Below, one piece after another: positions 28,933 through 62,856 of a stretch of 64,000 bases of DNA. The stretch spans positions 3,780,501 through 3,844,500 of the forward strand of contig NZ_CP150660.1 in NCBI RefSeq assembly GCF_038023995.1. Direction: 5' to 3'. Every line of letters begins with the position of its first letter. Positions within the stretch are counted from its first letter, which is position 1. This stretch comes from Polaribacter atrinae. Its GTDB lineage: Bacteria > Bacteroidota > Bacteroidia > Flavobacteriales > Flavobacteriaceae. Position numbers and translations under genes: made by a program. The notes beneath the pieces are model-generated. The model saw only the letters and a program-made list of their open reading frames with translations, made no database searches and had not been told where the DNA came from.

Positions 28933-29027
28933 AAGTGAACGGCTATTTTCCGCAGGAAAATGGACGTTTACAAAAATGCGACTAGTTTTGTAAATCACTA
29001 ATTTAGCAATTTTTATTATACGGTGTT
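28933..29027 (-). repeat. attC-like site 0, left part removed by IS3
   Basis: Retains the apical part GAACGGCTATTTTCCGCAGG and the right arm TATTATACGGTGTTAGC; its left arm is missing at the IS boundary. Same subtype as sites 5 and 18. Confidence 0.75.
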
Positions 29028-29198
29028 AGCAAATGTTTTTTACTTTCGATTGTCTTTATTAAATTAATAGATTGATTTTTAGTTCGGTAATTTATATTTT
29101 TCACTTCCGACTTAATTCCGAAAACTTGCTTTATTAGGAATTTTACATTTTTTTCGATTTTAAGTAAATATTTTAATCTCTATTAAATTTTATTTCTG

Positions 29199-29663
29199 TT
29201 ATGGGCAAATTGGTTTAATGTCATTTTTTGATAAATTAGTTTTTATTAAAAGATAATTCCACGTTGTTTGATTACCAAAATAATTTTCAATTTGATATAA
29301 ATCTATATTGTTTTGAGAGACTGTAAATGTATATATGTTATTTTCATTTGATCCATAATCAGATTTTATTTGTAGTTCATTTGTTTCTTGTATTGTAATA
29401 CTCTCATATCTTGAATCTAACTCACTCATTACTTCACTTATGTAGAAACAATCAGAGTTACTTAATTTAACATATTTGGTAACAGGATTGTTTTGGTTAT
29501 TTTCAATCAAGTAATATACATTTGCATCATTATTTTCAAATCGCCAAACTGTACCATCAAATTTCTGTAAGAATGTTTCAGATAAGTTTTCATTTTCAGA
29601 ACTACTACAACTAATAAAGATAAGAATAGTTATTGTTAAATGTAGTAAATAGTTTTTTTTCAT
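29199..29663 (-). CDS. Cassette 1: small lipoprotein
   Basis: A 154-aa protein with lipobox ILIFISC after a short signal. The mature part, starting near FLQKFDGTVWRFENND, is a compact beta-rich domain of about 125 residues resembling lipocalin-like DUFs of Bacteroidota, but I cannot name the family. The cassette begins GTTAGCAAAT (29025) and ends ATTTGCTAAC (29729). It differs from most others in having about 170 nt between the stop and the site core; that stretch holds no other ORF. Confidence 0.7.
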   Translation of the reverse strand: MKKNYLLHLTITILIFISCSSSENENLSETFLQKFDGTVWRFENNDANVYYLIENNQNNPVTKYVKLSNSDCFYISEVMSELDSRYESITIQETNELQIKSDYGSNENNIYTFTVSQNNIDLYQIENYFGNQTTWNYLLIKTNLSKNDIKPICP

Positions 29664-29766
29664 TTTTTATTATTCGTTTTTGTTTATTTTTTTCAGAGGT
29701 TAAAATTTCTTTTTGAAATATTTGCTAACGTGTTTCTTTAGTTTGTATTAAATATCTTTATGTAGT

Positions 29767-29829
29767 AACAGAGGAGAACTATAACGTGTTTTAGATTTGA
29801 AGGTCCCTTACACGTACGAGTCCTCTGTT
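29767..29829 (+). ncRNA. Putative bridge RNA loop of IS110 element A
   Basis: A 9-bp stem AACAGAGGA/TCCTCTGTT closes a 45-nt loop. The loop holds TAACGTGTTT (29782-29791), identical to the left target half at 29726-29735. It also holds CCTTACAC (29806-29813), the complement of GTGTAAGG, which matches GTGTAAG of attC-like site 14 and 6 of 8 bases of the occupied site (GTATATGG). In bridge RNAs one loop strand copies the left target and the other is complementary to the right target. The fold is drawn by eye. Confidence 0.5.
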
Positions 29830-29929
29830 TCTATAAAGTTGCAAAGAACCATTTGGAATACTAGGCGTATAAAATCCCGATAAAGGAAGTAGTTTTTGCA
29901 ACATATTTAATCATTCTAATTGTAAAAAT

Positions 29930-30922
29930 ATGAAAAATTACCAAGAAGTAGTAGGAATTGATGTATCAAAAAAGACGATTGATGCTTATTGTTATCATGC
30001 CCAAGTACACAAAGAGTTTAAGAACGATTTAACTGGTTACAAAAGCCTTATAAAATGGGTTTTAAAAGCAACAAAAGATAGTGCTGTTTTTTATTGTTTT
30101 GAGAATACCGGTTATTATTCCTTAAAGTTGGCACTTTATTTACACAGTAAAAAAGTTATTTATGTAGAGGAGAGTCCGTTAAAAATTAAACGTTCATCTG
30201 GCATTGTAAAAGAAAAAACTGATAAGTTAGATGCTCAGGTAATTGCTAGGTATGGTTGGCTTTACCGGGAAGAATTAACTGCAAGTACTGTTAAAAGTAG
30301 TGCTCATTTAGAGTTGGGTAGATTGTTAGCTTTAAGAGATCAGTTGGTTCGAAATAATGCAGGCTTAAAAGGTACTTTAAAAGAGATGAAAGTACTTTTA
30401 ACAAGCTCTACAACCGATTTAGGCTGTATCAGTTTAAAACGAAGTATTGACTATCTCACAAAGCAAGTCAAGGCAATAAAAAATAGAATTGAAGAAATAA
30501 TTTTTGATGATATTTCTATGAGTAAAAACTACGAATTACTTAGAAGCATGAGAGGAATTGGTCTTGTTGTTGCTTGTCAACTTATTTATCATACAGGCAA
30601 TTTTACAAGGTTTAAAAGTTGGCGAGCATTCTCTAGCTATTGTGGAACCGCACCTTTTGAACATCGCTCTGGAACCAGTATTCATAGACGAAAACAGTGT
30701 CATTATTTAGGCGATAGAAAGATGAAAAGTTTATTGAGTATGGCAAGTGTTTCTGCAATACAACATGATAGTGAATTAAAGTTATATTATCAAAAAAAAA
30801 TAGCAGAAGGAAAAGATAAAATGTTAGCGATAAATAATGTGAGAAATAAACTGTTAGCAAGAGCATTTGCAGTTGTTAAGAGAGGAACACCTTATGTTGT
30901 TCTTAAAAATTATGCTGCTTAA
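29930..30922 (+). CDS. IS110-family DEDD transposase (element A)
   Basis: A 330-aa transposase/serine recombinase. The N-terminal RuvC-like DEDD domain starts VVGIDVSKKTIDAYCY, with the Glu in YCFENTGYYS and further acids in EKTDKLDAQVIARY. The C-terminal Tnp20-type domain has SMRGIGLVVACQLIYHTG and SYCGTAPFEHRSGTSI with the catalytic Ser region. It inserts without duplicating its target and is guided by an RNA from its own non-coding end. It is not closely similar to the second IS110 protein (35572). Confidence 0.92.
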   Translation: MKNYQEVVGIDVSKKTIDAYCYHAQVHKEFKNDLTGYKSLIKWVLKATKDSAVFYCFENTGYYSLKLALYLHSKKVIYVEESPLKIKRSSGIVKEKTDKLDAQVIARYGWLYREELTASTVKSSAHLELGRLLALRDQLVRNNAGLKGTLKEMKVLLTSSTTDLGCISLKRSIDYLTKQVKAIKNRIEEIIFDDISMSKNYELLRSMRGIGLVVACQLIYHTGNFTRFKSWRAFSSYCGTAPFEHRSGTSIHRRKQCHYLGDRKMKSLLSMASVSAIQHDSELKLYYQKKIAEGKDKMLAINNVRNKLLARAFAVVKRGTPYVVLKNYAA

Positions 30923-31087
30923 AATAAAAACTAAATTTTATTAGGTTTTGATCTTGGAATACGTATATGGTTTGTTGCGTGGTTTAAGCAACTAATTTAG
31001 TAAATAAATACCGACCAAGAAAGTCCGCGAGGACTTTCGTAAGTAGGCGAGAAGCCAGCAATAAATTATATACAGTGTTGGGCACAG

Positions 31088-31855
31088 TTATTTATATTCT
31101 ATTTCCCTCGTTCGTATGTAATTTAGTTTGTCATTCTCAATTGATTCTCTTTGTGTCCAATTTTCAAACTTGTCAAATTCGTATTTATATTCTGTTGTTG
31201 AAATCAAAGAATCTTTGCTATTAAATTCTTTTATTTCCATTAAAATTCCACAATCGTATTTATATTCAGTATTTCGATTCCGTTCAGGTTTTCTAAAGTC
31301 CGATAGTTTGGATTCAGTTACAAATTCCTTGTCGTTATATTTACTTATTTCAAGAGTATTAGTAATTGTGTCATTTGTTTCAACGTCAATGTAGATTTGC
31401 TTTAATGAACTTTCTTTTAGTTTGTTATCAGAATTATATTTATAACCTCCAATTTGTTTGAATTGAAAAATGTCATTTTTGGATTCTGATTTTGTTTCCA
31501 AAAGCAATGTGTCTTTGTAGAAATAATCGACAATAAAATTTGAACTGTCGTTTGAAAGTTTCACAATTTCTCTTTTTATCTTTTTCTCATTATTGTAAAT
31601 GAATTCAATATCCATTGTTTCGTCAGCAAATAAATTCCGCTGATGTCTGCTAATTATTTGGTCATTTTCGTTGTATTTCTTTTCTGTAATTACAAGCGTA
31701 TCTTGAATCTTATTATTCAGAGAATCATTTTCCAATTTAATTGTGTATTCGGTAATTTGTGTTGCTTTTTGAGTCAGTCCGTTATTCAACAATTTTGGTT
31801 CATTGCAACAACCAATTAAGAATATTGAAAAAAGTAAAATTAGAAGTCTATTCAT
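31088..31855 (-). CDS. Cassette 2: YD-repeat-like lipoprotein
   Basis: A 255-aa lipoprotein (lipobox IFLIGC). The mature part is a series of strands with the recurring pattern Y-x-Y-D/N (ITEKKYNENDQIIS, IEFIYNNEKKIKR, GGYKYNSDNKLKES, TEYKYDCGILMEIK, TEYKYEFDKFENWTQRES), resembling RHS/YD repeats. The C-terminal strand RTREIEYK recurs in the related cassettes 18, 21 and 26. The stop is 7 nt from site 1 and the start 13 nt from the other cassette end. Function unknown; an immunity or envelope role is speculative. Confidence 0.75.
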   Translation of the reverse strand: MNRLLILLFSIFLIGCCNEPKLLNNGLTQKATQITEYTIKLENDSLNNKIQDTLVITEKKYNENDQIISRHQRNLFADETMDIEFIYNNEKKIKREIVKLSNDSSNFIVDYFYKDTLLLETKSESKNDIFQFKQIGGYKYNSDNKLKESSLKQIYIDVETNDTITNTLEISKYNDKEFVTESKLSDFRKPERNRNTEYKYDCGILMEIKEFNSKDSLISTTEYKYEFDKFENWTQRESIENDKLNYIRTREIEYK

Positions 31856-31872
31856 TCGGTTTTAATTGTGCC

Positions 31873-32061
31873 CAACGGTCTTGTATAAGAATAGTAGGGC
31901 TGAAAATAGTCGCTAACCATTCGGATGGACACAAGTCGAATTTTTAAATTTTTCTTATTACTTTTTTTTCAATAAGCCAATTTTAAAAATTTGGCGACCT
32001 TGCAAATGTGACATTACCATTGGATTAAGCCTCATTGCCCTATTATTTTTATGCGTTGTTA
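31873..32061 (-). repeat. attC-like site 2 (long subtype, ~189 bp)
   Basis: Starts CAACGGTCTTGTATAAG and ends GTTAGC. It contains the internal inverted pair TTTTTAAATTT...AAATTT and lacks the common apical hairpin. Similar in layout to site 11. Confidence 0.7.
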
Positions 32062-32077
32062 GCAAATGTTATTTATT

Positions 32078-35000
32078 TTAGTTTGAGATTTTATTTCCTT
32101 CTTTATCAATGTAATAAATATTAGGTTTGAAGTAATTTCCATCATTGACCTGTGCTTTTCCATTTTCAAATGGAGTACCTGTATAATATTTAAGTGGGGT
32201 TATTTTATTTCCATTTGTATCAATATAACCAACTTTTCTGCCCAATACACTAACCTTAGCTACAACTGCAATACCTTCAGAAAAATTACCGCATTCTTGA
32301 TATTTTTCACTTACTATTATTTCACCGTTTTCGTTTATATATCCATATTTTTTAAATGTTCCATTGCTTTTATCATTAAAAACCGCTAAACCATTATAGA
32401 AAAGACCTAAGGTTTTGTAGTCTACAGGAATAGTTGTTTTACCATCATTATTTATAAAGCCGTACCTTTCGTCTTTTTTAATTCTAAATCCGTTACCAGA
32501 CTGTGTTACTTCGTCATATTTTTCCTTAAGAATTTTCTCTAAATCTTCTACGGATTCAATATTGCTTAACTCCTCAATTTCTGTGTTTGAATCTTTATCT
32601 TCAATTATTCTTGAACCATTTTTGTCTATATAAAATACCTCATCATTTAGCTCCACAAGTGCCTTTCCATTTTCAAAAGGTTGTGCTTTAGTATATTTTA
32701 TTTTCGCAATTGTTTTTCCCGTATAGTCGATATAACCATATTTAGTATATGTACCAAATACAGCTCTCCAAGCAGTACTTGTACTTACAACAGCAATACC
32801 TTCATTAAATATAGGTTTGTTATGAAATTTTAGTTTGGATGTAATTTTTCCGTTGCTATCTACAATAGCGTAATAATTACCGTCCTTTATTGTAGAGTAA
32901 CCATTATTGGAGTTAAAAGCATCCACTAAGTTGGATTCTTCTTCACTAGCCTCATTGCCTTCTTTATCAATATAATAAGTTTTATCGTTGCCACCACCCA
33001 TAAAAGAATCATTTCTAGTATATCTTGTGACTCTTGCATAACCATTTTTAAAAGATTCACCGGTATCGAAACTTCCTTCAATAATAATGTCCTCTTTATT
33101 ATTAATATAGACAGCCTCAGTTACATATACTTTAACTTCTTGTCGAGTTACTGGATTAATGTACTTTCCTTCTTTCTCTCTTTTTATTTTTTTTACAAAA
33201 GCTAAACCTTGAGAAAATGCTTTTGCTTCAGCATATTTAAAATCAATGACTATTTTTCCAAATTCATCAATAAAGCCCCATTTCTGATTTGTATAGTCTT
33301 GAACTGCGGACAAACCTTCAGAGAAATGAGTTGCATTTAAATAAGTAGGTGTAGTCTGGATTTCCCCTTTTGTATTTAAAAAACCATAAAGATTTGTACC
33401 ATTTAGACTCTGCCTAAACCTTAAACGGCCATTATTATATTGTTTTGAGATTTCACTCTCTCTAAAATTATCATTATTGAAATCATATTTATTGCCAAAA
33501 TCAAGAACTTTTGTGCCGTTTTTATTAATTACTATATGTCGAGGTTTAGCAAATTCGTATTGATAATCAATATAAACACGCATTAAATTATCGTGCTCTG
33601 TCCAGTTATAATCTTTATGTTTAGAAAGTGTAATATTGATAATTTGCTGTTCTTTTAGTTTAAGCTCAGCTATTGTTTTTAAAACATCATCAAAATCATT
33701 TTTATATTGACCACTTTTATCGATGGCAACTACTCTTTTTAAAATACTTGCTCTTTCATAGATATCTAAACCTTGTACTAAAGTTTTTTCATAAAGCCAT
33801 TCTGCTTTATTCGGTTCCGCATCTATAGCTAATTCAAGAAAATAAGGTGCTTTATCTCTTACTAATTCAAACGAATTTTTTTGTTTTCTTTTGTAGGCAT
33901 TAAAATAATCTTGGCCACTTATTGGCTTCTTGGTTTTTGTAGCAGGTTTAGAATTTTGGGGTTTCTCACAAGAATAATCATCTACAACTATTTTAAAAGC
34001 ATTTTCAGTCATACATTTTGCATATTCGTATTGGGCTAAATGATAATCTTCATTTTCTTTCTTTAGAGCATAAATAGCAGCTTGTTTGTGTTGGATTTTT
34101 ATGGGCTCAAATTTGTCGATAATCTTTTGTGATAATTTGTTTAAAATTTGTTGTTTTTCGTTTTCAAGTTTTTCTTGAGCTTTTTTTCTTTCTTTTTCTA
34201 AATTTGATTGAGATAAGGCTGTTAAACCTGCACCGAGTATTCCTCCAGCTATGGCTTGTTCTTCATTTTGAGCAGAGTTTACGAGGTTTTGAGTAGCTGA
34301 AACACCTTGGTTTAAGGCATCTTGTTTTCTTGTAGCGTATTCATTATTTATTTGCTGAGCCTTACTTCTAGCTTCATTTACAATTGAAGATGCATTTACA
34401 CTTTTGATATTAGTAAGAGATGAAATTTTTGACTGAAAATCTCGTTCTTCAGCCCAACTATTTGAAATTTGATTAAAGGTTTGAGTTAAATCATTTGCTA
34501 ATTGTTGATTTAGAGCTTGCTGCTTTGCAAATTGTTCGTTTTGACTGCCTATAAAATCTTGGGCATTTTTAGACTGATTATTCTTAGATACAGGTGTGTC
34601 ATAACTCCCTTGATTGTTTAAAGCTTTTTCCTCATTTTTTTCTTTAGGTGAGTTAAAATCGATTTTATTATTTATATCACCACACAAACTTAATTTACTT
34701 GCAAAATGTTCTTGTATATATGCATCTACTGAAACAATTGTTCCAGGTAATCTCTCAATTTCATACACTTTTTCTTGTGTTATAAAAGCTTGTCCTGCAA
34801 TATTAGTAGCCTTAGGTGTAGCATCTGGGTCATCTGTAGCAAGCGCAATTTGAGAGCTTTTATAAATTGGATGTGATTTTATTGCTTTTAGTATGGCAGC
34901 ATTTACATCTTGCCACCAAAAATTATCTCTAGGTATACACAATTCTTGAGGAGGAAAATATGCAGCATAAAAATGATATTGTAATTGTTCTCCTTCGCTA

Positions 35001-35140
35001 TTAGTTCCAATAATTGAAGTCCAACCTCCAATGCCAGTTTTCTCTTTTACTCCAGATTTTGAATAACATTCACACTTAGTTTCTTGTGAAAAAGTGGATA
35101 ATGAAAAAAAGACAATAATGATTGTTAAATATGCTTTCAT
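32078..35140 (-). CDS. Cassette 3: large secreted WG-repeat protein
   Basis: A 1,020-aa protein with a signal peptide (IIIVFFSLSTFSQ). After a Cys-containing N-terminal domain and a long Gln/Ala/Glu-rich coiled-coil region (about 170-370) comes a TPR-like part (KAEWLYEKTLVQGLDIYERA), then at least eight WG repeats (GFINNDGKTTIPVDYKTLG, YGYINENGEIIVSEKY, WGFIDEFGKIVIDFKY). WG repeats form beta-propeller-like surfaces of unknown ligand. At 3.17 kb it is an unusually large cassette. Ends GTTAGCAAAT/ATTTGCTAAC match. Confidence 0.85.
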   Translation of the reverse strand: MKAYLTIIIVFFSLSTFSQETKCECYSKSGVKEKTGIGGWTSIIGTNSEGEQLQYHFYAAYFPPQELCIPRDNFWWQDVNAAILKAIKSHPIYKSSQIALATDDPDATPKATNIAGQAFITQEKVYEIERLPGTIVSVDAYIQEHFASKLSLCGDINNKIDFNSPKEKNEEKALNNQGSYDTPVSKNNQSKNAQDFIGSQNEQFAKQQALNQQLANDLTQTFNQISNSWAEERDFQSKISSLTNIKSVNASSIVNEARSKAQQINNEYATRKQDALNQGVSATQNLVNSAQNEEQAIAGGILGAGLTALSQSNLEKERKKAQEKLENEKQQILNKLSQKIIDKFEPIKIQHKQAAIYALKKENEDYHLAQYEYAKCMTENAFKIVVDDYSCEKPQNSKPATKTKKPISGQDYFNAYKRKQKNSFELVRDKAPYFLELAIDAEPNKAEWLYEKTLVQGLDIYERASILKRVVAIDKSGQYKNDFDDVLKTIAELKLKEQQIINITLSKHKDYNWTEHDNLMRVYIDYQYEFAKPRHIVINKNGTKVLDFGNKYDFNNDNFRESEISKQYNNGRLRFRQSLNGTNLYGFLNTKGEIQTTPTYLNATHFSEGLSAVQDYTNQKWGFIDEFGKIVIDFKYAEAKAFSQGLAFVKKIKREKEGKYINPVTRQEVKVYVTEAVYINNKEDIIIEGSFDTGESFKNGYARVTRYTRNDSFMGGGNDKTYYIDKEGNEASEEESNLVDAFNSNNGYSTIKDGNYYAIVDSNGKITSKLKFHNKPIFNEGIAVVSTSTAWRAVFGTYTKYGYIDYTGKTIAKIKYTKAQPFENGKALVELNDEVFYIDKNGSRIIEDKDSNTEIEELSNIESVEDLEKILKEKYDEVTQSGNGFRIKKDERYGFINNDGKTTIPVDYKTLGLFYNGLAVFNDKSNGTFKKYGYINENGEIIVSEKYQECGNFSEGIAVVAKVSVLGRKVGYIDTNGNKITPLKYYTGTPFENGKAQVNDGNYFKPNIYYIDKEGNKISN

Positions 35141-35406
35141 AACTTTATAAAATTTATGTTGTAAAATATCTTTGTTCTAAGTATTTGTCAATACCTAATA
35201 GTGGGTATTTTTATTTTAATATTTGCTAACGTTTGTGTATATGGTTTGTTGCGTGTTTTAAGCAACTAATTTAGTAAATAATTACCGACCAAGAAAGTCC
35301 GCGAGGACTTTCGTAAGTAAGCAAGAAGCCAGCAATAAATTATATACGGCTTAAGTTAGCATTTTATAATAAAAGACTAAATTTAAGTATATAAATCAGA
35401 AAGAAT

Positions 35407-35478
35407 AAAAGAGAGAATTAAGGTTAATATATACGGTGAAGCCAAGACTTCGACAACATTGATAATCCTCTCTCTTTT
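35407..35478 (+). ncRNA. Putative bridge RNA loop of IS110 element B
   Basis: A perfect 10-bp stem AAAAGAGAGA/TCTCTCTTTT encloses a loop containing TATATACGGTG (35428-35438). This is identical over 11 nt to the right arm of the common attC-like site, spanning the insertion point. CAACA (35454-35458) is the complement of the TGTTG half on the other side. This is the arrangement expected of left and right target guides in IS110 bridge RNAs. Fold judged by eye. Confidence 0.6.
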
Positions 35479-35571
35479 CTACTAAAAATCACGTTCAGTT
35501 CTGTGAGACCTAGATCTCGATTTCAAGTTGTTGTGAGTAAAAGTAGGTTATTCTTTCATAAATCAGTTCTT

Positions 35572-36540
35572 ATGAATAAATATAAGGAAATTTTTGGAGT
35601 TGACATCAGTAAAGACGTTTTTGATGTTTATGGAAGTACAAGTGGTCATGATCAATTTAAAAATGATGAATTAGGTTTTAAAACCTTCTTAAAAAGTTTA
35701 CCTAAAAACTCACTAGTAATTATGGAAGCAACAGGTTATTACCATTATAGATTAGCTCAGTTTTTATACAAGCAAAGCATTTTTGTATCGGTTGTAAATC
35801 CTTTATCAGTCAAGCGATTTATCCAAATGAAATTATCTAAAGTAAAGACGGATAAAAGTGATGCGAAGGCTATTTGTGAATATGGAACCATTAATGAAGT
35901 TCCATTGTATACGGCTCTTACCAATGTTCAGAGTGAGTGTTTACAGTTGTTTAGATTATTAGATAGTAATATTAAAAAACGTACAGCGGTTAAGAATAAA
36001 ATTCACGGAGAAGAAGTTTTAGGGATTCCTTCTAAATGGGTTTATGGTTCATTAAAACGGACTAAAAAACATTTAGATAAAGAGATTTTAGGAATCGAAA
36101 CGAAAGTACTTTCATTAGTAAAACAAGACCAGCAAGCACAATTAACATTACTAACTAGTATTCCAGGAATAGGTTTGAAAACGGCATTGTTTTTAATCGT
36201 AATTACTGATGGATTTAAGAAGTTTGAAACGGCTTCACAATTATGTAGTTATGTAGGGATCACTCCAACGATAAGAGTATCTGGAAGTAATGTACGGGGA
36301 AGAAGTAGAATAAGTAAGGTTGGAAATAGGAAGCTACGAAACCTTTTGTTTCTCTGTGCTTTTACAGCTTGCAAGCATAATAAAGGGTGTCGCGAGATTT
36401 ATGAGCGAATTGTAAACAAGGGTAAGAGTAAGAAATTGGCTTTAATAGCGGTTTCAAATAAACTGATAAAACAGAGTTTTGCTATCGCAAAATCAGGTTT
36501 ACCATATGACGAAACGTACGTTTCTGTTTTATCAAAATAA
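35572..36540 (+). CDS. IS110-family DEDD transposase (element B)
   Basis: A 322-aa protein from the ATG at 35572 (MNKYKEIFGVDISKDVFDVY); an in-frame GTG/ATG 69 nt earlier only adds residues without family similarity. The DEDD domain shows VDIS, VIMEATGYYHY, KTDKSDAKAICEY; the C-terminal Tnp20 domain shows TSIPGIGLKTALFLI, SYVGITPTIRVSGS and GRSRISKVGNRKLR. It is the recombinase of element B, presumably programmed by the adjacent non-coding RNA toward attC-like DNA. Confidence 0.92.
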   Translation: MNKYKEIFGVDISKDVFDVYGSTSGHDQFKNDELGFKTFLKSLPKNSLVIMEATGYYHYRLAQFLYKQSIFVSVVNPLSVKRFIQMKLSKVKTDKSDAKAICEYGTINEVPLYTALTNVQSECLQLFRLLDSNIKKRTAVKNKIHGEEVLGIPSKWVYGSLKRTKKHLDKEILGIETKVLSLVKQDQQAQLTLLTSIPGIGLKTALFLIVITDGFKKFETASQLCSYVGITPTIRVSGSNVRGRSRISKVGNRKLRNLLFLCAFTACKHNKGCREIYERIVNKGKSKKLALIAVSNKLIKQSFAIAKSGLPYDETYVSVLSK

Positions 36541-36654
36541 GTAGTAATTACATAAAAAATAAAAGCTCAAAATACTAATTGATAGAATTATGAGCCTGGA
36601 GCAATAGTGCATAAATTTTATGAAGAAAAGAGTTGTTTTTTAGCTCAGTTCTTT

Positions 36655-37243: not shown

Positions 37244-37253
37244 TAAGCCGTTT

Positions 37254-37511: not shown

Positions 37512-37585
37512 AATGTCAATAAATCCGTTTTTTAATGTTGATTCGTTATTTTGTAGGCTTCCCTAAAAATGTAAGCTTCCCCTTT

Positions 37586-54270: not shown

Positions 54271-54305
54271 AATATCAATTCATATTATCAAATGAAACAG
54301 ATTTT

Positions 54306-55151: not shown

Positions 55152-55344
55152 AAAATTAGTCCCATTTTTATTAGGTAGTCCAAAGAGTCAATTTCAATGA
55201 CTTTTATTCCAGTTTCATTTTTTATATTTTTCAAATAATAAAATTCGATACTTTCTTTAGAATTCCAAATTATTAATATAACAATAAAAAGAATGTAATA
55301 TTTCGTTTTCAGCTTTCTTTTCGGCATTTTTGGTTAATGTTTTA

Positions 55345-55468
55345 CAACGTGTTTTGTGTATGGTAAGTAAGGGATAAGTATAAACTACCTTTCATTTGGC
55401 ACTTTAAAAATAAGTATTAACTAATTTAAAACAAGCAATATCGCCCTTATTTATTATACACGATGTTG
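55345..55468 (-). repeat. attC-like site 19 (divergent)
   Basis: Starts CAACGTGTTTTGTGTATGG and ends TTATTATACACGATGTTG. The centre differs: GTAAGGGATAAGTA on the left, CGCCCTTATT on the right as second stem. Confidence 0.75.
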
Positions 55469-55580
55469 TGTACAGTACTATTCAGAAGCTAAGTTATTAT
55501 TCAAGTTCTTTGTAAATATTATAAAAGTGTTAAAGATATGTTAAAGTCGGTATTTAGTCTTTTTTAAGTTAATTAAGATA

Positions 55581-55588
55581 TATTTTTG
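55581..55588 (+). promoter_or_regulatory. -7 box inside cassette 20 (TATTTTTG)
   Basis: Fits TAnnTTTG 15 nt before the start of the plus-strand gene at 55604, so this cassette gene seems to have its own promoter. Confidence 0.45.
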
Positions 55589-55603
55589 TTATAAAAAACA
55601 AGC

Positions 55604-55813
55604 ATGGAAGATTTAATTAAAACATTGTTATCTAAAATTGATTCTTTAGATAGCAAGATAACTAATTTAGAAACAAATGTTAGTTCTTTGGAAACAAAGA
55701 TGATTAATGAATTTTCAAGTGTAAACAAGAGATTAGATGGTATTGATTATGAATTAAAAAAACTCAATACTGTTACTAAATATAAAGATACTTATAGAAA
55801 CATACCTGCTTAA
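55604..55813 (+). CDS. Cassette 20a: small coiled-coil protein on the opposite strand
   Basis: 69 aa, one of the two supported plus-strand genes within the cassettes, apart from IS genes. The sequence is a heptad-repeat helix (IKTLLSKIDSLDSKITNLETNVSSLETKM, NKRLDGIDYELKKLNTV). No family recognised; such short coiled coils occur as tails or partners of membrane proteins. A TAnnTTTG box precedes it. It converges with the minus-strand gene at 56228. Confidence 0.55.
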   Translation: MEDLIKTLLSKIDSLDSKITNLETNVSSLETKMINEFSSVNKRLDGIDYELKKLNTVTKYKDTYRNIPA

Positions 55814-56157
55814 AGATTTGTTCTATAAAAACAAAGAGTGTAGTCCGCTAAAACATACACTCAATGTAATTTCAGTATTAACTTTTCAGAAATACTCGGT
55901 AAATTAGATAAGCCCAGTTCAATAGACTTCTAATTAACCTCTCGTAATTGAGCCACTTCTCCCTTGGAGATAAAGGCTCTTTTCTATGATTACTCATACT
56001 CTTAAATATCTTTGTGTTTTTAATTGGAAAGACTTCGGGTTTGAGTAATCAATACGATTCTTACAAAGTTACAGTAAAATTCAGCTTTTGATTTAGATAG
56101 TTTATTGTAAGTTATTAACAGGCTTTATATAATTATCTATACTTACTGTTTTATATT
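55814..56157. other. Non-coding interior of cassette 20
   Basis: 344 bp without a credible ORF. Short hairpins are visible, e.g. GAGTGTA..TACACTC near 55837-55862 and GAGCC..GGCTC near 55953-55980. It may hold the promoter of the small ORF at 56158. Confidence 0.35.
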
Positions 56158-56271
56158 ATGAGTTGGTTTAAAAAAATAGATTTTGAAAGTCCAAAATTCA
56201 GATTTTACACAAGTTTAGTTGCGTTAATTATTTCAATAATAGCGTTAGTATCGACACTATTAGAGCGATAA
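56158..56271 (+). CDS. Cassette 20b: 37-residue membrane microprotein
   Basis: ATG at 56158 opens MSWFKKIDFESPKFRFYTSLVALIISIIALVSTLLER and stops at 56271. It has a short amphipathic start and one transmembrane helix. Its 3' 44 nt overlap, antisense, the 3' end of the minus-strand gene at 56228, and the two proteins end in similar segments (FYTSLVALIISIIAL against FYTAIIALIVSILTL). This similarity, plus FE-x-x-K before it in both, supports translation of both. Confidence 0.45.
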   Translation: MSWFKKIDFESPKFRFYTSLVALIISIIALVSTLLER

Positions 56272-56650
56272 TAGCAGTATAAAATCCCCACTTACCATAT
56301 TCAAAACTTTCGATTGTTCCTTTTCGGATTATTTCCTCTTGGGTTTCTTTTCTGATTTCTTTATTTTTATTACTTGTTTCCTTTTCTTTTGTTTCGTTAA
56401 GATACTTTAACCAACCTTTGTTTTCGTATATTCTAATTCCATTGCTTGTTAAAGTACAAAATTCACCATAAATAGAAATTAAACCATATCTCTCCATATA
56501 ATTTGCTATAACTTTCGGTTGAATATCTACACTATCAATTCTTTCTCCTTTTATATCAATAAAATAATGATAAGACTCTCTTTTATCGTTTCGATTCCCT
56601 AAAACATTTAAGTTTATATTTATTAATTCTTTTATTTCCTTATCTGTCAT
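56228..56650 (-). CDS. Cassette 20c: tail-anchored protein
   Basis: 140 aa from the ATG at 56650 (MTDKEIKELININLNVL); upstream codons only translate the attC-like site. The cytosolic part resembles a small winged-helix-like domain (QPKVIANYMERYGLISIYGEFCTLTSNGIRIYENKGWLKYL), then a charged helix (ETKEKETSNKNKEIRKETQEEI) and a C-terminal transmembrane anchor (FYTAIIALIVSILTLLLK). No family named. Ends GTTGTGTACA/TGTACACAAC match. Confidence 0.65.
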   Translation of the reverse strand: MTDKEIKELININLNVLGNRNDKRESYHYFIDIKGERIDSVDIQPKVIANYMERYGLISIYGEFCTLTSNGIRIYENKGWLKYLNETKEKETSNKNKEIRKETQEEIIRKGTIESFEYGKWGFYTAIIALIVSILTLLLK

Positions 56651-56684
56651 TCCTTTTACATTGAGCGAGATTGGGTATTGTACA

Positions 56685-56809
56685 CAACGTTGTTGTGTAT
56701 GATTAGTGGCGTGTTTAAGCACCTAATTTAGCAAATAAAAACCGAATAGAAAATCCGCGAGGATTTTCGTAAGTAGGCGAGAACTAGCCATTAATTATAC
56801 ACGTTGTTG
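56685..56809 (-). repeat. attC-like site 20
   Basis: Starts CAACGTTGTTGTGTATGA. Apical GAAAATCC-GCGA-GGATTTTC. Ends TATACACGTTGTTG. Confidence 0.86.
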
Positions 56810-56820
56810 CCACACGTTTT

Positions 56821-57795
56821 TTATTTCCAATAACTTATTTTTCTCGTATCCACATAAATTGGAACGAATTCCTTTGAATTATTAAAATGTTCTTTCATTG
56901 ATACATTTTTCTTAATCCAATTCCCATTTTCGTCAAATTCATAGGTAAATTTCAGTTCACGATTTAATTTTGAGTTTTCATATTCTTTTGAATTAGTGGG
57001 ATTATATAAAATATCAAATTCAGTTATATTGTCTAAATGCTTTTTTAAATCCGCTGATATTGTATAAGAAGTTTGTTTAAAAATTCTTCCATCTTTCCAT
57101 TCCGTTTCGCTTATCATTTCTATCCATTCTGTTTTATATGACGATTCTATTAGATTGTTGTTATTGTCATATTTAAACAGATTAGTTGTCATTGATTTGT
57201 CATTCCCTTTTTCTTTTTGTGTAGAAGATATTATTTTATCATTATTATCAAAAGCGTATTCTAAATTAACTTCGGTCGTATCATTTCCTTTAATGGAAAT
57301 TCGTTTTATTTGATAATCATTTTTTCCATAATAAAAAGTTGTTTTATGGTCAATTGTATCATTAACGAAAACACTCAATTCACTCGTGTTTTTGATAGTA
57401 TCATATTCCGAAGTTTGAATAATATTCGATTCGTTTGATTTGTTAATTGAAACACTTTTTATGAAATCTTGGTTTTTGTTATAATCAATAACATTAGTTT
57501 GTGTAAGTTCTCCATAATTATCGAAGTATTCTACTTTTTTTAATTCCCCAAAATCAGTGTACTCTTCTATTTTGTTCAGAACAGGTTTATCTTCATTTAC
57601 TGTGTTCTGAAAAGTTGTTTTGTAATATTCAATTTTTTCAACTTTTCCATACAGATTGTTTCCTTGTAAAGCGTTTTTCGAATCTGAATAAATTGGCTGT
57701 AAATCGGTTCTCAATTCAGTTTTATTTTGGCAGTTAAATAAAATAATTGACAGTAAAGTCAGTAAGTAAATTTTTCTCAATGTTCTTATTTTCAA
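56821..57795 (-). CDS. Cassette 21: YD-repeat-like lipoprotein
   Basis: 324 aa (lipobox LLSIILFNC). The mature part is made of repeated strands (KVEKIEYYKTTFQ, LKKVEYFDNYGELTQ, NVIDYNKNQDFIKS, VNLEYAFDNNDKIIS, NLFKYDNNNNLIESS, LKFTYEFDENGNWIKK) and ends VDTRKISYWK, paralogous to cassettes 2, 18 and 26. The NGNWI-K motif before the last strand is the most conserved piece of the set. Function unknown. The stop is 11 nt from site 20; ends GTTGCCACAC/GTGTGGCAAC match. Confidence 0.73.
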   Translation of the reverse strand: MKIRTLRKIYLLTLLSIILFNCQNKTELRTDLQPIYSDSKNALQGNNLYGKVEKIEYYKTTFQNTVNEDKPVLNKIEEYTDFGELKKVEYFDNYGELTQTNVIDYNKNQDFIKSVSINKSNESNIIQTSEYDTIKNTSELSVFVNDTIDHKTTFYYGKNDYQIKRISIKGNDTTEVNLEYAFDNNDKIISSTQKEKGNDKSMTTNLFKYDNNNNLIESSYKTEWIEMISETEWKDGRIFKQTSYTISADLKKHLDNITEFDILYNPTNSKEYENSKLNRELKFTYEFDENGNWIKKNVSMKEHFNNSKEFVPIYVDTRKISYWK

Positions 57796-57803
57796 ATGTG
57801 TGG

Positions 57804-57931
57804 CAACGTTGATGTATATGGTTTGTTGCGTGTTTCAAGCAACTAATTTAGTAAATAATTACCGACCAAGAAAGTCCGCGAGGACTTTCGCAAGTAGGCA
57901 AGAAGCAAGCAATAAATTATATACGGTGTTG
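57804..57931 (-). repeat. attC-like site 21
   Basis: Common type: starts CAACGTTGATGTATATGG, apical GAAAGTCC-GCGA-GGACTTTC, ends ATACGGTGTTG. Confidence 0.88.
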
Positions 57932-57941
57932 CCAGTAGTTA

Positions 57942-58655
57942 TTATAGTTTATGTGCTGCAACTTTCAGCCAAATTTCTTTAAGTTCTTTTCTGCTAATAT
58001 TAAATTTTTTCATTATAATCGGTTCAGATTGTTCTTCTTGCATATCCCAATATTTTTCGCTCATAATTTCGTTGTAAATTTCCAATTCTCTTTTTGTCGG
58101 CAAATCAGATTTAGTTATTTTTCCAACTTTGTCTTTGATTATTATCTCAAAATTATAATTCGTTCTTATATTACTTTTTGCAATTTCAGGCGTTACATTT
58201 CCAGTTTTTGCATTAGGCGACCAAAGTAATTTTCCAAAAGTGTATCCATTTCCAATGTCATTTTTGTCATCGTAAGCAAATATTACGATTTCATCAATAT
58301 CTTTATTTTTTTCCGTTTGTTCATAAACGATAGATTTTAAAGTATTTTCAAGATTCTCTTTTGAAATGTCAAATGGAATAACAATTGACATTGTTAATCT
58401 TATAAAATTTGGTAAATCCTTAAGTTCTTGAGTTGAATAATCAGATAATTTTCGAGTTAAAGCCTTTGCGCTTGAAAATTCAGATTCCTCAATTGTAAAA
58501 CTCGAAATTTTTGTTGAGTCAAATTCTATTTTAAATTCAGGTTCAGAATTTGAAGTTTCTAATTTCAATTCAGTTTTTGATTCAGTTTTGTTCTTCTTCG
58601 TTTCATTACAACTTAATAAAATCAGAATTGGTAAAATCCATAATATTCTTTTCAT
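57942..58655 (-). CDS. Cassette 22: lipoprotein of unknown family
   Basis: 237 aa from the ATG at 58655 (MKRILWILPILILLSC, lipobox). A Lys/Glu/Ser-rich spacer precedes a globular part with DLPNFIRLTMSIVIPFDISKENLENTL and IDEIVIFAYDDKNDIGNGYTFGKLLWSP, which resembles DUF4875-type domains; that name is tentative. The C-terminus is helical (MKKFNISRKELKEIWLKVAAHKL). Ends GTTGCCAGTA/TACTGGCAAC are the same as those of cassette 13, although the genes are unrelated. Confidence 0.68.
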   Translation of the reverse strand: MKRILWILPILILLSCNETKKNKTESKTELKLETSNSEPEFKIEFDSTKISSFTIEESEFSSAKALTRKLSDYSTQELKDLPNFIRLTMSIVIPFDISKENLENTLKSIVYEQTEKNKDIDEIVIFAYDDKNDIGNGYTFGKLLWSPNAKTGNVTPEIAKSNIRTNYNFEIIIKDKVGKITKSDLPTKRELEIYNEIMSEKYWDMQEEQSEPIIMKKFNISRKELKEIWLKVAAHKL

Positions 58656-58700
58656 TTCTCGCTTTTTGTGTTGAGTTCTTCGGTTTTCGTTAATTACTGG

Positions 58701-58827
58701 CAACGGTCTCGTATAACCGTCAGTTACGGGTTAATATGCGTTAATTTTCGATTTATCACAGGCTTTAGCAATTCCGAGTGGATTCGGACGTAGTCGAATC
58801 CGCCGTAATTGCGGTTATACATTGTTG
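58701..58827 (-). repeat. attC-like site 22 (divergent)
   Basis: Starts CAACGGTCTCGTATAACCG and ends CGGTTATACATTGTTG, a strong outer stem. The centre carries ATTCCGAGTGGATTCGG hairpins. Confidence 0.78.
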
Positions 58828-59357
58828 TGCCCAGTTTTTATTTTTTCAATCAGTTTGTCAATCCGTTCATTTCTGCACCAAGCTGTTCGGTCAAAATTTA
58901 TTTCGTGAACGGTTCTGCCATAATTATTGATTTTTAAAATCCTTTGTTTTCCAAAAAGAGAATCTTCCTTATTTTGAAAATCATAGCTTAAATTTTTATA
59001 ATCGTAATGGTTGTCTTTTTCCTTATTATTAGCTAGATTAATAGTTTTAATTTCCAGTTTGCGCTCCGAGTCATTAAACTCAATTTTGTAAACTTCTCCG
59101 AATTTATATTTTTTTCTAGTCCGATAGATAAACCAAGTTATAACTCCTATCGAAATTATCAGACTCGACCACAACGGATTTTCAAATAAAAGTTCAGCAG
59201 TTGTGTTTACTCTAGTCGGTCTGCCATTAGATACAAATAATGGAATGGCAATCCAACTTGCCAAAAAGAGGACAATGAATAATACAATATATTTAATTCC
59301 GATTGTCAAAAAGTTTAAATCAGAGGCAGGTTTTTCTATTTCGTAACTGTCGTTCAT
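58815..59357 (-). CDS. Cassette 23: two-helix membrane protein
   Basis: 180 aa from the ATG at 59357 (MNDSYEIEKPASDLNF). Two transmembrane helices (YIVLFIVLFLASWIAIPLFV and SLIISIGVITWFIYRT) are followed by a beta-rich cytosolic domain (FGEVYKIEFNDSERKLEIKTI; KQRILKINNYGRTVHEINFD) with a PH-like strand pattern. It ends inside attC-like site 22, from which the last residues (TGHNNV) and the stop codon derive. No family named. Ends GTTGTGCCCA/TGGGCACAAC match. Confidence 0.66.
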   Translation of the reverse strand: MNDSYEIEKPASDLNFLTIGIKYIVLFIVLFLASWIAIPLFVSNGRPTRVNTTAELLFENPLWSSLIISIGVITWFIYRTRKKYKFGEVYKIEFNDSERKLEIKTINLANNKEKDNHYDYKNLSYDFQNKEDSLFGKQRILKINNYGRTVHEINFDRTAWCRNERIDKLIEKIKTGHNNV

Positions 59358-59367
59358 AAATTGGGCA

Positions 59368-59492
59368 CAACGTGTTTGTATATGGTTTGTTGCGTGGTTA
59401 AGCACGTAATTTAGCAAATAAAAACCGAATAGAAAATCCGCGAGGATTTTCGTAAGTAGGCTAGAACTAGCAATAAATTATATACGGTGTTA
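59368..59492 (-). repeat. attC-like site 23
   Basis: Starts CAACGTGTTTGTATATGG. Apical GAAAATCC-GCGA-GGATTTTC. Ends ATACGGTGTTA. Confidence 0.88.
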
Positions 59493-59559
59493 GCACCAGT
59501 TTTTTAATCATTTATATAATCTGTTGTTCATTTAATGAAATGTGTAGTCTTTAGTATTT

Positions 59560-60468
59560 TCAACGCCAAATACCTTCAGGAATTGGCTTTTCCTCTACTA
59601 TTTCTACTAATAGACTGTCAGGGCCTCTAACAAAAAAACTTTTCATTCCGTGAATAGAGTCAATTTTTATATTATGAACAATATCTAGTCCATCGGATTT
59701 CATTTTCTTCATTAGAAACTCAATATTTTCAGTTGAAAAACCAATATGATCGATTGAGCTACCATCTGTTGGTTTAATTTCTTCATTAGACCACCACGAT
59801 TCTTCCTCAACTGGTTTGCCAAACACAATTATATTAATATTATTGACGGTCAATAAATTCCATTTCCATCGAAGCTCGTTATTCTGCCATTGCTTCGCTT
59901 CTTTATATACTGGAAGGAATCCTAGATTGGATTCAAACCAGTTCATAGTTTTATCAACATCAGATGATAGTAAGTGGATATGTTCAAACCTATGATTTTT
60001 GTTTCCAGTATAAACTTCTATGACTTCTTTTTCTGGGCCAAGAAAGTACATCCAAAAATTATCACCAAGAGGTGTAATGTTGGTATGAACCGCTATTCCT
60101 TCATTGACTCTCCAGTCAAATTCAGATTGACCATCCACACCTGACCAACCAATATGCCATAAACTGGAACCTAAATGTGTTGGTGGTGCAATATCGACAA
60201 GGTTCATTAATAAAAACGATTTTTCCGTATAAAGAGCATCCACTCGCTCTCGATATTTTATTTGAGTCGCACCAAAGTATTTTTGATAATATGCAATAGT
60301 TGAATCTCTGTCTGTAACATTTAGATGGATATGATGAAAATTTACTTTACTTAATTTTTCAGTCTCTTCGGATTTTTCAGGTAGCTGTTTACATCCAACA
60401 AATTGAAATATTAGAGTAGCGAAGACAATTAAGGTAGTTCTATATTTTATGTCATTCAAATTATTCAT
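59560..60468 (-). CDS. Cassette 24: lipoprotein with two VOC (glyoxalase-like) domains
   Basis: 302 aa. The N-terminal hydrophobic segment ends IFQFVGC, a lipobox. Two vicinal-oxygen-chelate domains follow: the first begins FHHIHLNVTDRDSTIAYYQKYFGA and the second EHIHLLSSDVDKTMNWFESNLGF, each opening with the metal-ligand His. EVIEVYTG and LLVEIVEE carry the closing Glu of each module. Such proteins include glyoxalases, dioxygenases and drug-binding proteins; the substrate is unknown. The stop is 68 nt from site 23, further than usual. Confidence 0.8.
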   Translation of the reverse strand: MNNLNDIKYRTTLIVFATLIFQFVGCKQLPEKSEETEKLSKVNFHHIHLNVTDRDSTIAYYQKYFGATQIKYRERVDALYTEKSFLLMNLVDIAPPTHLGSSLWHIGWSGVDGQSEFDWRVNEGIAVHTNITPLGDNFWMYFLGPEKEVIEVYTGNKNHRFEHIHLLSSDVDKTMNWFESNLGFLPVYKEAKQWQNNELRWKWNLLTVNNINIIVFGKPVEEESWWSNEEIKPTDGSSIDHIGFSTENIEFLMKKMKSDGLDIVHNIKIDSIHGMKSFFVRGPDSLLVEIVEEKPIPEGIWR

Positions 60469-60484
60469 TTTTTCAAATTGGTGC

Positions 60485-60612
60485 TAACGTTTTGGTATAA
60501 AGAAAGTTGCGGTTTTGTCAACGAGGAATTTCCAGCGGAAATTCAGAAGTTGGCAAAAATGCAACTACTTTAAATTAAGCACTAATTTAGCAATTTTTTT
60601 TATACGGTGTTG
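60485..60612 (-). repeat. attC-like site 24
   Basis: Starts TAACGTTTTGGTATAAAG. Apical GGAATTTCC-AGC-GGAAATTC. Ends TATACGGTGTTG. Confidence 0.82.
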
Positions 60613-60984
60613 TAATTTCGTTGTGAAACATTTGAGTAAGCACGTTTTGATTCCATTTTCAACTTTTCAGCGTGTGAGTAAATTCCTACATTTTAACTTT
60701 AAAATACTTTTTTTAAAAATTACCGCAATAAATTCCACATTTTTGGTTTCCCGCTTGAGTTAATTCAAACGTTACGATTCCGCAAAGATTTTCAATTCCG
60801 CCTACTTAATTATTCACGAGATTTTGTCCCTCAAAATTCAGTTTCCCAATCTTGTAAAATTCCAAAGTTGAGTAAAATTTGCAAAGATTTTCAATTCAAT
60901 ATTTTGAGTGTTTTTTTACTTTAAAAACTCAAACTTCATTTTATTTTTCAACCGTTTTCGTTTTTCTGAACAATGAATTACAAC
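60609..60984. other. Cassette 25: no supported ORF
   Basis: A 376-bp cassette with ends GTTGTAATT/AATTACAAC. Shares ACATTTGAGTAAGCACGTT with cassette 9 and many AATTCCG/TTGAGT words with cassettes 4 and 6. The open frames here are short and implausible. Confidence 0.65.
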
Positions 60985-61108
60985 GTTTATGTATATGGTT
61001 TGTTGCGTGTTTTAAGCAACTAATTTAGTAAATAATTACCGACCAAGAAAGTCCGAGAGGACTTTCGCAAGTAGGCGAGAAGCCAGCAATAAATTATATA
61101 CGGTGTTA
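60981..61108 (-). repeat. attC-like site 25
   Basis: Common type with apical GAAAGTCC-GAGA-GGACTTTC. Starts CAACGTTTATGTATATGG, ends ATACGGTGTTA. Confidence 0.88.
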
Positions 61109-61115
61109 GGCAACG

Positions 61116-61970
61116 TTATTTGTAATATTCAATTTTTCTAACTATGACAAAAGTTGGTTTTAAGTTATCATAAACTACTTTTTCAATCCAATTTCCTTTT
61201 GTGTCATACTCAAATTTTTCTTTCCTTATTATTTTTTCATTTTTATCAAAATCATTTATTTCAATTAGTAAATCTTTTTCGTTATAATTTCTAACGCTTT
61301 TGAAAACTTGCTTATTAATAGAATCAAAAATTTTCACAGAAATCAATTGATTCTTATTATTGTAATTCAGAATTCTTTTGTCGTCAAATTTCCCTTTATA
61401 ATAAAACTCTTCTTTTTCTTTATTATTTTCAGAATCAAACTCGTATAATGCTTTTGAAATTAAAATATTGTCAGAGTTTAAAAAGTTTTCTTGAACTACT
61501 AAATTTTTATTATTAAATGTGTTAATCATTTTGCTTTCATACTTTCCATCACTATCATAATCTATATTTTCTATATTATTTCCTTTTTCATCATATTTCC
61601 AAATTGTTTTTCCAGATAAAGTTCCATTGGAATTATAGTGATTATTTTCTATAACATCATTATTCTTATCATATTTAACAGTTGTTTTTGAGATTAACAA
61701 ACCATTTTTGTCCATTTTATTCCGCTCAATTAAATAACCATTTTCATTATAAATATTCTCATAATTTTTTCTCCAACTATATTCTAATTTTAAATCTCCT
61801 TTTTCTGTTTTACCAAACTTTTCAACTGCCAGATAAGTTCTTTCTGTAGTTGATTTAACTTTTCTTTTTAAATCATTTAGTTCTAAAGAGTTTTGTTTTC
61901 TTTCAAATGAAGTACAGTTTGAAAAAAATAAAAGTAATAATGTGTATGAAAATATTTTATTGATATGCAT
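61116..61970 (-). CDS. Cassette 26: YD-repeat-like lipoprotein
   Basis: 284 aa (signal ending LLLLFFSNC). Repeats are especially regular: YENIYNENGYLIERN, TTVKYDKNNDVIENN, TIWKYDEKGNNIENI, ALYEFDSENNKEKEE, RILNYNNKNQLISVK, RNYNEKDLLIEIND, EKFEYDTKGNWIEKV, ending RKIEYYK. It is the clearest member of the set with cassettes 2, 18 and 21. Spacing of about 20 residues per unit matches RHS/YD repeats. Function unknown; the stop is 7 nt from site 25 and ends GTTAGGCAAC/GTTGCCTAAC match. Confidence 0.75.
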   Translation of the reverse strand: MHINKIFSYTLLLLFFSNCTSFERKQNSLELNDLKRKVKSTTERTYLAVEKFGKTEKGDLKLEYSWRKNYENIYNENGYLIERNKMDKNGLLISKTTVKYDKNNDVIENNHYNSNGTLSGKTIWKYDEKGNNIENIDYDSDGKYESKMINTFNNKNLVVQENFLNSDNILISKALYEFDSENNKEKEEFYYKGKFDDKRILNYNNKNQLISVKIFDSINKQVFKSVRNYNEKDLLIEINDFDKNEKIIRKEKFEYDTKGNWIEKVVYDNLKPTFVIVRKIEYYK

Positions 61971-61987
61971 TTTTTTTTAATGTTGCC

Positions 61988-62114
61988 TAACGGTCTTGGC
62001 TATGGTTTCGTTGCGGAATGGTTCGGCAGAACTATTCCGCCGTAAACCAAAGTTAGCAAATACGCAGGAATTTCCGAGAGGAAATTCCACCGCAATGAAC
62101 TATAGCCGTTGTTG
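61988..62114 (-). repeat. attC-like site 26
   Basis: Starts TAACGGTCTTGGCTATGG and ends ACTATAGCCGTTGTTG (outer stem GGCTATGG/CTATAGCC). Apical GGAATTTCC-GAGA-GGAAATTCC. Confidence 0.8.
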
Positions 62115-62124
62115 TACAACGTAC

Positions 62125-62820
62125 TTATTTTTCCGTGTCTATTAACCAAGCGTTTCTGTATTCCGTTATTTTACTTAATTCTTGTTTTAATTTTTGTCGG
62201 TCTAAATCCATTTCGGAATATTCTGCTCGTTCATAGAGTAGGTTATAAGCCGATTGATGAAGTCCGTATTTTTTTAAGGTGTAAAAGTCAGATTCCGCAT
62301 TTTTAGAATTCAGATTTTCGTTATCAAACTCAATTTTTAAAAGGTCAACCAATGTGTCATTTACAAACTGGTTTTCGTAATTCAGTCGTTTTTTTTCCGA
62401 TTTCATTGAGTTAAATTCTTGGATAATTTCGTAAACGATTGAGTCGTTTTTCTCCGCCTTTCTTCGGTTCCAAAATTCAGCGTAATATTTTGTCTGTATT
62501 TCAGGTTTGTTATAGGTAAGTTCCAAACTGTCCATTAAATTCTCAAAATTTTGTTTTATATAAATTCCTTGAATTAAAAATTCATTGTCACTTTTAAAAA
62601 TCAGCCTTTCGAGTTTGTCGTAACCAAACTTTTTAAATGATTCGTGAACCATTTTTAAATTCTTCGGTTTTCGAATCCACGAGTTTTTTGTCCAGTCTCC
62701 ATTTCTCAAATCGAAAAATGAAGTTTGGTTTTCTGCATAAAATTCCAATTCAGATTTCTTGTCGTTTTTACAAGACAGAAATAAGAAAATCAGAAGTAAA
62801 ATTGTCAGCAGTTTGTTCAT
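62125..62820 (-). CDS. Cassette 27: lipoprotein of unknown family
   Basis: 231 aa from the ATG at 62820 (MNKLLTILLLIFLFLSC, lipobox). The mature part is helical and charged (SFFDLRNGDWTKNSWIRKPKNLKMVHESFKKFGYDKL; EYSEMDLDRQKLKQELSKITEYRNAWLIDTEK). No family recognised. The cassette ends are the palindromic GTTGTACAAC on both sides. The stop is 10 nt from site 26. Confidence 0.68.
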   Translation of the reverse strand: MNKLLTILLLIFLFLSCKNDKKSELEFYAENQTSFFDLRNGDWTKNSWIRKPKNLKMVHESFKKFGYDKLERLIFKSDNEFLIQGIYIKQNFENLMDSLELTYNKPEIQTKYYAEFWNRRKAEKNDSIVYEIIQEFNSMKSEKKRLNYENQFVNDTLVDLLKIEFDNENLNSKNAESDFYTLKKYGLHQSAYNLLYERAEYSEMDLDRQKLKQELSKITEYRNAWLIDTEK

Positions 62821-62835
62821 TTCGGGTATGTTGTA

Positions 62836-62856
62836 CAACGTTTAGTATAAGAGTAG
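62836..62856 (-). repeat. attC-like half-site 27
   Basis: CAACGTTTAGTATAAGAGTAG resembles the left arm of site 2 (CAACGGTCTTGTATAAGAAT), but the rest of the site is missing: the next gene's stop codon is at 62865. Either a truncated site or a different kind of junction. Confidence 0.55.

Follow-up and report, generated by a model that had tools for sequence, protein, structure and literature searches.

Is the long run of short gene units in the chromosome of the flavobacterium Polaribacter atrinae an integron, and which enzyme would have assembled it? The window analysed here is a stretch of 64,000 nucleotides (nt) of contig NZ_CP150660.1 (positions 3,780,501 to 3,844,500 of the forward strand), for which the original prediction proposed a cassette array of ~34 kb. 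The array is present and larger than proposed: in the window and the next 20 kb, 34 cassettes could be chained over 45 kb, from window position 29025 to L016 9447, where L016 is the stretch to the right of the window, G000 the host genome, and other G and L numbers the genomes and loci compared. The array lies on the minus strand (28933..64000, onward to G000:C1:3853947, ~9.4 kb past the window), with 27 cassettes wholly inside the window and a 28th crossing its right edge. We consider it about 85% probable that this is a chromosomal array of GTT-bounded cassettes, captured at one attI-like site by an adjacent tyrosine recombinase that lacks the segment specific to the integron integrase IntI.

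Cassette ends, sites and copies

We examined the two ends of each cassette for complementarity. The four end pairs originally quoted were all located in the sequence, and a recount of the same 27 cassettes again gave 26 with complementary ends, the exception being 37240-38872. Among all 34 cassettes, the ends match at 10/10 positions in 27, at 9/10 in six and at 6/10 in that one exception. At the free positions 5-10, the two ends of one cassette agree in 194 of 204 comparisons, against a mean of 74.0 (standard deviation (s.d.) 8.3, maximum 108) when the ends were re-dealt 20,000 times; own-end pairing is far above chance. As originally reported, the outer ends of one site do not match: a cassette's end and the next cassette's start agree at 59 of 198 positions, with no exact match. 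The matching arms are the opposite ends of a cassette, 0.3-3.6 kb apart, and do not flank one site. Some ten-base ends are common to different cassettes (1 and 3; 13 and 22; 12, 19 and 33; 18 and 34), GTTGTAAAAC for example occurring three times.

The pairing does not end at about 10 nt, as had been supposed: the arms are 14 positions long, with position 11 constantly mismatched. In the window array, this position is G/T on the plus strand in 30/34 cassettes, the remaining four fitting after a 1-nt shift (by eye), and positions 12-14 pair again in 29/34, 34/34 and 27/34. The sole fair count of the mismatch comes from 117 cassettes picked only by their 10/10 ends from 189 in chains of at least two across 41 loci, the other 72 (9/10 ends) being left out. 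Several other sets (the 272 sites used for folding and L arms, the chains of a second array in this genome, the loci of a second recombinase clade and the copy pairs, all described below) were called with scoring that favours A/C at position 11. Of the 117 cassettes, 116 have A at position 11 of the start and C at position 11 of the end, which makes a G·T wobble on the bottom strand; positions 12, 13 and 14 pair in 117, 116 and 109.

The same method was applied to the 40 kb around a true IntI in eight genomes. The three canonical arrays with clear long chains (G179, G362 and G374) gave 35 cassettes at ≥9/10, of which 27 were exact; position 11 is Watson-Crick in 21 of these exact cassettes, and A/C or G/T in none. 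A wider canonical pool (≥8/10, both strands, chance chains included; n = 150) held 85 Watson-Crick and 15 A/C or G/T positions. The end pairing in the canonical arrays measured here also covers about 10 nt, and PMC2727003 describes a core of only GTT/AAC with pairing over 9-11 nt as ordinary for attC. The GTTR core and the ~10-nt pairing, initially put forward as departures from attC, are thus no differences at all. What does set this system apart is its enzyme, a stem of 14 positions and, at position 11, a G·T that is fixed on the bottom strand.

Inside the site, the L''/L' arms pair as well, leaving spacers of 3 and 6 nt: in 272 sites, 1207 of their 1904 cells are paired (shuffled, 858, s.d. 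18). L020 and L060 were excluded from the L-arm, folding and copy-pair sets, being the same genomes as G030 and G017. A/C, or G·T on the bottom strand, is found at L-arm positions 7, 8 and 12 in 151, 87 and 146 of the 272 sites. When the reconstructed circle sites were folded with DNA parameters, the bottom strand was the more stable in 264 of 272, a preference partly built in by the A/C-rewarding calls, and among sites called in the same way the circle form folded better than the in-array form in 265 of 272. This preference appears to match the logic of integrons, which use the bottom strand, chosen by extrahelical bases (PMC2727003). Since the G·T at position 11 exists on the bottom strand only, the folded bottom strand is the likely substrate.

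We then compared cassette copies, defined as pairs with at least 95% identity over 95% of their length among 423 cassettes, which gave 27 near-identical pairs in 21 families. At the left end, identity stops no more than 6 nt beyond the GTT start in 22 of the 27 pairs; at the right end, 16 pairs stay identical across the downstream site and part at most 8 nt from the next GTT, and 13 are sharp at both ends. Five pairs join the window array and its extension to the second array (95.9, 98.8, 99.9, 99.9 and 100%), and in two of these the identity also covers the entire downstream site. A cross-species pair (G046/G062) shares 659 nt at 99.85%, with downstream sites 100% and upstream sites 59.8% alike; the upstream sites of 11 copy pairs are 54-78% alike, and random site pairs 65.0% (s.d. 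7.3). These breakpoints imply a mobile unit composed of GTT...AAC and the site downstream of it; this composition fixes its orientation, and each cassette owns its downstream site. In summary, cassettes have moved as units with breakpoints at GTT, as expected from the original prediction, with exceptions at the right end in 11 pairs and at the left end in five. As GTT is common to both partners, the copies place the junction within GTT and not at a particular base of it.

A recombinase without the IntI segment and its relatives

A tyrosine recombinase was predicted beyond the right edge of the window, on the minus strand and upstream of the array. The gene is there and the IntI-specific segment that was to come with it is absent. 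It encodes 374 amino acids (aa) (G000:C1:3854044-3855168, minus strand, or L016 9544-10668), lies 96 nt from the first cassette and shares its reading direction with most cassette genes; between the two, the coding strand carries the attI-like half-site CTGTATATAAACAA|GTTGGCAACA. The distance from KGxKxR to RHSFAT is 67 (once 68) in 15 rows of this family, compared to 109 in 8/8 IntI, and the match to the IntI model TIGR02249 (189.6 bits, cut-off 265) skips model positions 177-238. The best sequence profile and the best structural match for ~residues 100-365 are both of the XerA type, and an additional domain of ~95 residues precedes them at the N-terminus. This is not an IntI-family integrase with the additional domain. 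In other respects the array has the marks of an integron, namely AAC/GTT ends with R''/R' pairing (33/34 at ≥9/10), L arms, unit movement and a common gene direction. It is integron-like in its working, yet departs from the definition in its integrase. An ordinary integron, whose IntI would have diverged and lost the extra segment and whose enzyme and sites would descend directly from canonical integrons, is an unlikely explanation, to which we give minor weight. The GTT-bounded copies and a recombinase without the IntI segment support the earlier proposal of a mobile cassette system akin to integrons, possibly with a non-canonical integrase.

To see how far this arrangement extends, genome contigs were searched with a profile of 20 relatives, which returned 521 relatives; the best 80 of these were kept and belong mostly to Flavobacteriaceae, with a few other Bacteroidia and with Polaribacter as top matches. 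Of these 80 loci, 58 extend 900 nt or more past the recombinase gene, and in 53 of the 58 a first cassette lies 60-250 nt behind the stop, compared to 9/58 in dinucleotide-shuffled sequence and 3/54 in upstream flanks. Ahead of the first GTT lies a conserved element whose consensus, judged by eye, is ...TTCCGCATATAAACAA|GTT; a similar stretch, CTTCCGCATA, is found farther upstream. In 48 of those 53 loci, [CT]ATA precedes GTT by 4-6 nt; counted over stretches with a first cassette, the figure is 53/58 (shuffled, 1), and the motif is missing in L038, L069, L072, L074 and L077. Of the 19 loci of a second recombinase clade (40-45% identical), some of which offer little sequence downstream of the gene, 10 have a first cassette; in this clade, GTTR follows within ~45 nt of the stop in 13 of 15 (by eye). 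A site model, R1, built partly from the host genome and its relatives, matches 84 of 117 relatives. In a hand-compiled table of 117 genomes (G000 included; recombinase counted at E 2.1e-48 or better), a close recombinase and sites occur together in 57, the recombinase only in two, sites only in 27 and neither in 31.

The second array of the host genome (G000:C1:1061703-1197410, plus strand) holds 105 cassettes in two chains (64 and 41), where shuffled sequence gave chains of two. Its head carries the last codons and the attI-like element of a group-2 recombinase gene, and an intact group-2 gene without this element lies 1.7 Mb away (by eye). No cassette chain was found within ~20 kb behind the group-2 recombinase at 2777149. 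A phage-type integrase fragment near the array, at 1060627, was considered and discarded as unrelated and interrupted.

Several observations weigh against an array built by its adjacent recombinase. Five of the 58 loci have no first cassette (L039, L046, L087, L089 and L098), 27 of the 58 genomes that lack a close recombinase still contain sites, and the head of the 105-cassette array retains no more of a recombinase gene than the codons mentioned above. At L-arm position 4 the wobble tends the opposite way, 54 of the 272 sites having G/T on top. Of the 27 copy pairs, 11 diverge within the downstream site, 5-90 nt from the cassette end, and in five the identity runs 10-30 nt past the left end; the simple model accounts for neither. 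A later exchange between sites behind the 11 early-diverging pairs might be guessed at. Two of the 27 pairs lie side by side in one array and could simply be tandem duplications.

Other ways of producing such an array were weighed against the same data. The cassettes could be moved in trans by the host XerC/XerD or another recombinase, the adjacent gene being a passenger, which would fit the sites found in genomes without a close recombinase copy and the 15 TIGR02249-like stretches in the host genome (two of them belonging to the candidate itself). However, the order of recombinase, attI-like site and first cassette in 53/58 loci, together with the 10/19 loci in which the second clade also leads cassettes, makes this improbable. 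Homologous recombination between repeated sites, shuffling the units without a site-specific enzyme, is less probable still. It could draw on the 11 pairs that break within the site and on the likeness of sites within one array (~68% on average, up to 93%), but the left identity ends close to GTT in 22/27 pairs, the upstream sites of the 11 compared pairs are just 54-78% alike, and the pairing of a cassette's own ends is left unexplained. Finally, the sites fold strongly, as would immobile repeats that are conserved RNA or terminator structures; against this stand the position of the matching arms at the two ends of a cassette, the existence of unit copies with GTT breakpoints and an Rfam search of window 28900-64000 that gave no match at E 0.1, and we give it almost no credence. 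Capture by the adjacent recombinase is the reading retained below.

The surroundings of the recombinase gene were also inspected. It follows two polymerase genes in the row, one DinB-like and one DnaE-like, with a divergent helix-turn-helix/S24 (LexA-like) gene (L016 9544-15707). SOS control of the recombinase was examined and set aside, as this polymerase neighbourhood recurs in just two of 75 other loci with more than 1500 nt upstream (L021 and L022, both DnaE). Neither of the Bacteroidetes SOS motifs CTAA-N5-TTAG and GGA-N5-TCC, as given in PMC8565304, occurs in the host's intergenic stretch (by eye). Over 300 nt of upstream sequence, CTAA-N5-TTAG is found at three of 79 recombinase genes (shuffled, 0) and GGA-N5-TCC at none (shuffled, 2). 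An SOS link is a possible lead. A partial relative of the recombinase (residues 161-373, 57.5% identical) is found on Acinetobacter plasmids and on one uncultured-bacterium plasmid, annotated as a tyrosine-type recombinase or TnpF. The lytic Polaribacter phage P12002L (L164) holds one complete cassette (14622-15197, minus strand) with ends 10/10, A/C at position 11 and three further pairs, as well as two R1 matches (14503-14624, minus strand, E 2.9e-11; 31118-31313, plus strand, E 4.1e-5). PMC9892861 reports recombination between an attC of this phage and attI1, with IntI1 as the integrase.

Array layout and cargo

All cassettes of the array lie on the minus strand, and its left end is cut by an insertion element. 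Cassettes with 10/10 ends include 1 (29025..29729), 2 (31077..31876), 3 (32058..35230, encoding a 1020-aa WG-repeat protein), 7 (39621..41786), 9 (43171..43509), 11 (44762..45596), 12 (45784..46386), 13 (46507..47632), 17 (51681..52357), 18 (52478..53373), 20 (55465..56688), 22 (57928..58704), 23 (58824..59371), 26 (61105..61991) and 27 (62111..62839). The ends match at 9/10 in cassettes 4 (36655..37122), 6 (38993..39502), 15 (48509..49688, with an erythromycin-esterase-like domain), 25 (60609..60984) and 28 (62956..64000, finishing past the window at L016 377). Cassettes 14 (47753..48390), 16 (49806..51560) and 24 (59489..60488) carry a methyltransferase, an AAA ATPase with an OLD-like TOPRIM domain and a glyoxalase-like protein, respectively. 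Three cassettes have copies in the second array, namely 8 (41902..43049, DUF6438; a 1148-nt copy, 100% identical), 10 (43629..44641; 99.9%) and 21 (56806..57807; 99.9%, the copy's downstream site diverging after 70 nt).

Insertion elements interrupt several positions. A transposase-like gene (35503-36540) separates the start of cassette 4 from its site, the non-matching cassette 5 (37240..38872) holds transposase-like genes, and cassette 19 (53494..55348) has one inside (54306-55151). The last of these also occurs at the left end of the array (28056-28901), the two copies being 99% identical over the 300 nt compared. Cassettes 8 and 9 are separated by a typical attC-like site (AAC, 121 nt, GTT; 43047..43173, minus strand), and such sites also separate the remaining cassettes, two of them broken by insertions. 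The long sites 31877-32057 (181 nt) and 45597-45783 (187 nt) are 73% alike over the 96 nt compared, and other arrays, too, have a second class of sites, 170-184 nt in length.

The longest open reading frame (ORF) is on the minus strand in 26 of the 30 cassettes that have an ORF of 50 aa, four of the 34 having none; in the second array, at a cut-off of 90 aa, the directions divide 81 to 1 among 105 cassettes. When the array proteins were scanned, 13 of 27 had no Pfam family at E 0.01. The cargo includes the OLD-like TOPRIM ATPase, putAbiC, a methyltransferase, a glyoxalase and DnaJ, and type IIG restriction enzymes and a ParE toxin are among the 25 top families listed for the 98-protein set that includes the second array. 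These families suggest that phage defence is likely to be part of the cargo.

Proposed mechanism and comparison with known systems

If a cassette were closed into a circle, its ends would come together around its site and form the 14-position stem. Both strands can be read from the sequence: the bottom-strand stem would be continuous, with G·T at position 11, and the top strand would have A·C, an asymmetry that may pick the strand, which is the role of extrahelical bases in known attC sites. The adjacent recombinase would bind the folded bottom strand of the circle's site and exchange one strand, between G and TT, with double-stranded attI; replication would then complete the insertion, so that new cassettes would enter beside the recombinase gene. 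More tentatively, and at slightly less than even odds, this may be a second, separately evolved integron system of flavobacteria, in which single-stranded attC hairpins are recombined by a XerA-like enzyme without any IntI domain in its ancestry, the strand being chosen by the bottom-strand G·T and by the added N-terminal domain, which resembles the XPB-damage-recognition/HARP-like domains that bind nucleic-acid structures. No description of this cassette system was found in the open-licence literature, the scope of the search, outside which subscription papers and preprints fell. If the main reading holds, flavobacteria would have gene banks of superintegron size (105 cassettes in one array) that IntI-based searches would miss, there would be a second kind of bacterial gene-capturing platform, and the role of the IntI segment on folded single-stranded sites could be tested by comparing two enzymes that differ in it.

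XerA-type recombinases, which the enzyme resembles over the residues given above, serve chromosome resolution in archaea and are not known for cassette arrays. Integron detection relies on IntI, and clusters of attC sites without an integrase (CALINs) are probably the most that a search with the IntI model could report here; unlike in CALINs, a recombinase is present, though below the cut-off of that model. IntI was above the cut-off in 84 of 296 sampled Bacteroidota genomes, one of those 84 in the host's class and none in its order. Bacteroidota are counted among the integron-bearing phyla in two reviews (PMC8618304, PMC9668308). The IntegronFinder 2.0 paper gives one complete integron in Bacteroidetes proper, in Salinibacter ruber (PMC9024848), and a Tenacibaculum paper that ran IntegronFinder 2.0 reports none in its genome (PMC10013915).

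As in Treponema integrons, the recombinase gene reads toward attI, along the cassette direction; unlike here, the Treponema enzyme is treated as IntI in PMC3607928. The closest likeness in organisation is to sedentary chromosomal integrons, which share one recombinase, one attI-like site, long unidirectional arrays and mostly one-gene cassettes, as well as a downstream site owned by the cassette, AAC/GTT ends, R and L arms and unit movement at GTT. In contrast to them, the enzyme here is without the additional domain of IntI and has the extra ~95-residue N-terminal domain, its sites are mostly 115-121 nt with 3/6-nt spacers, and the 14-position end stem carries a fixed bottom-strand G·T at position 11.

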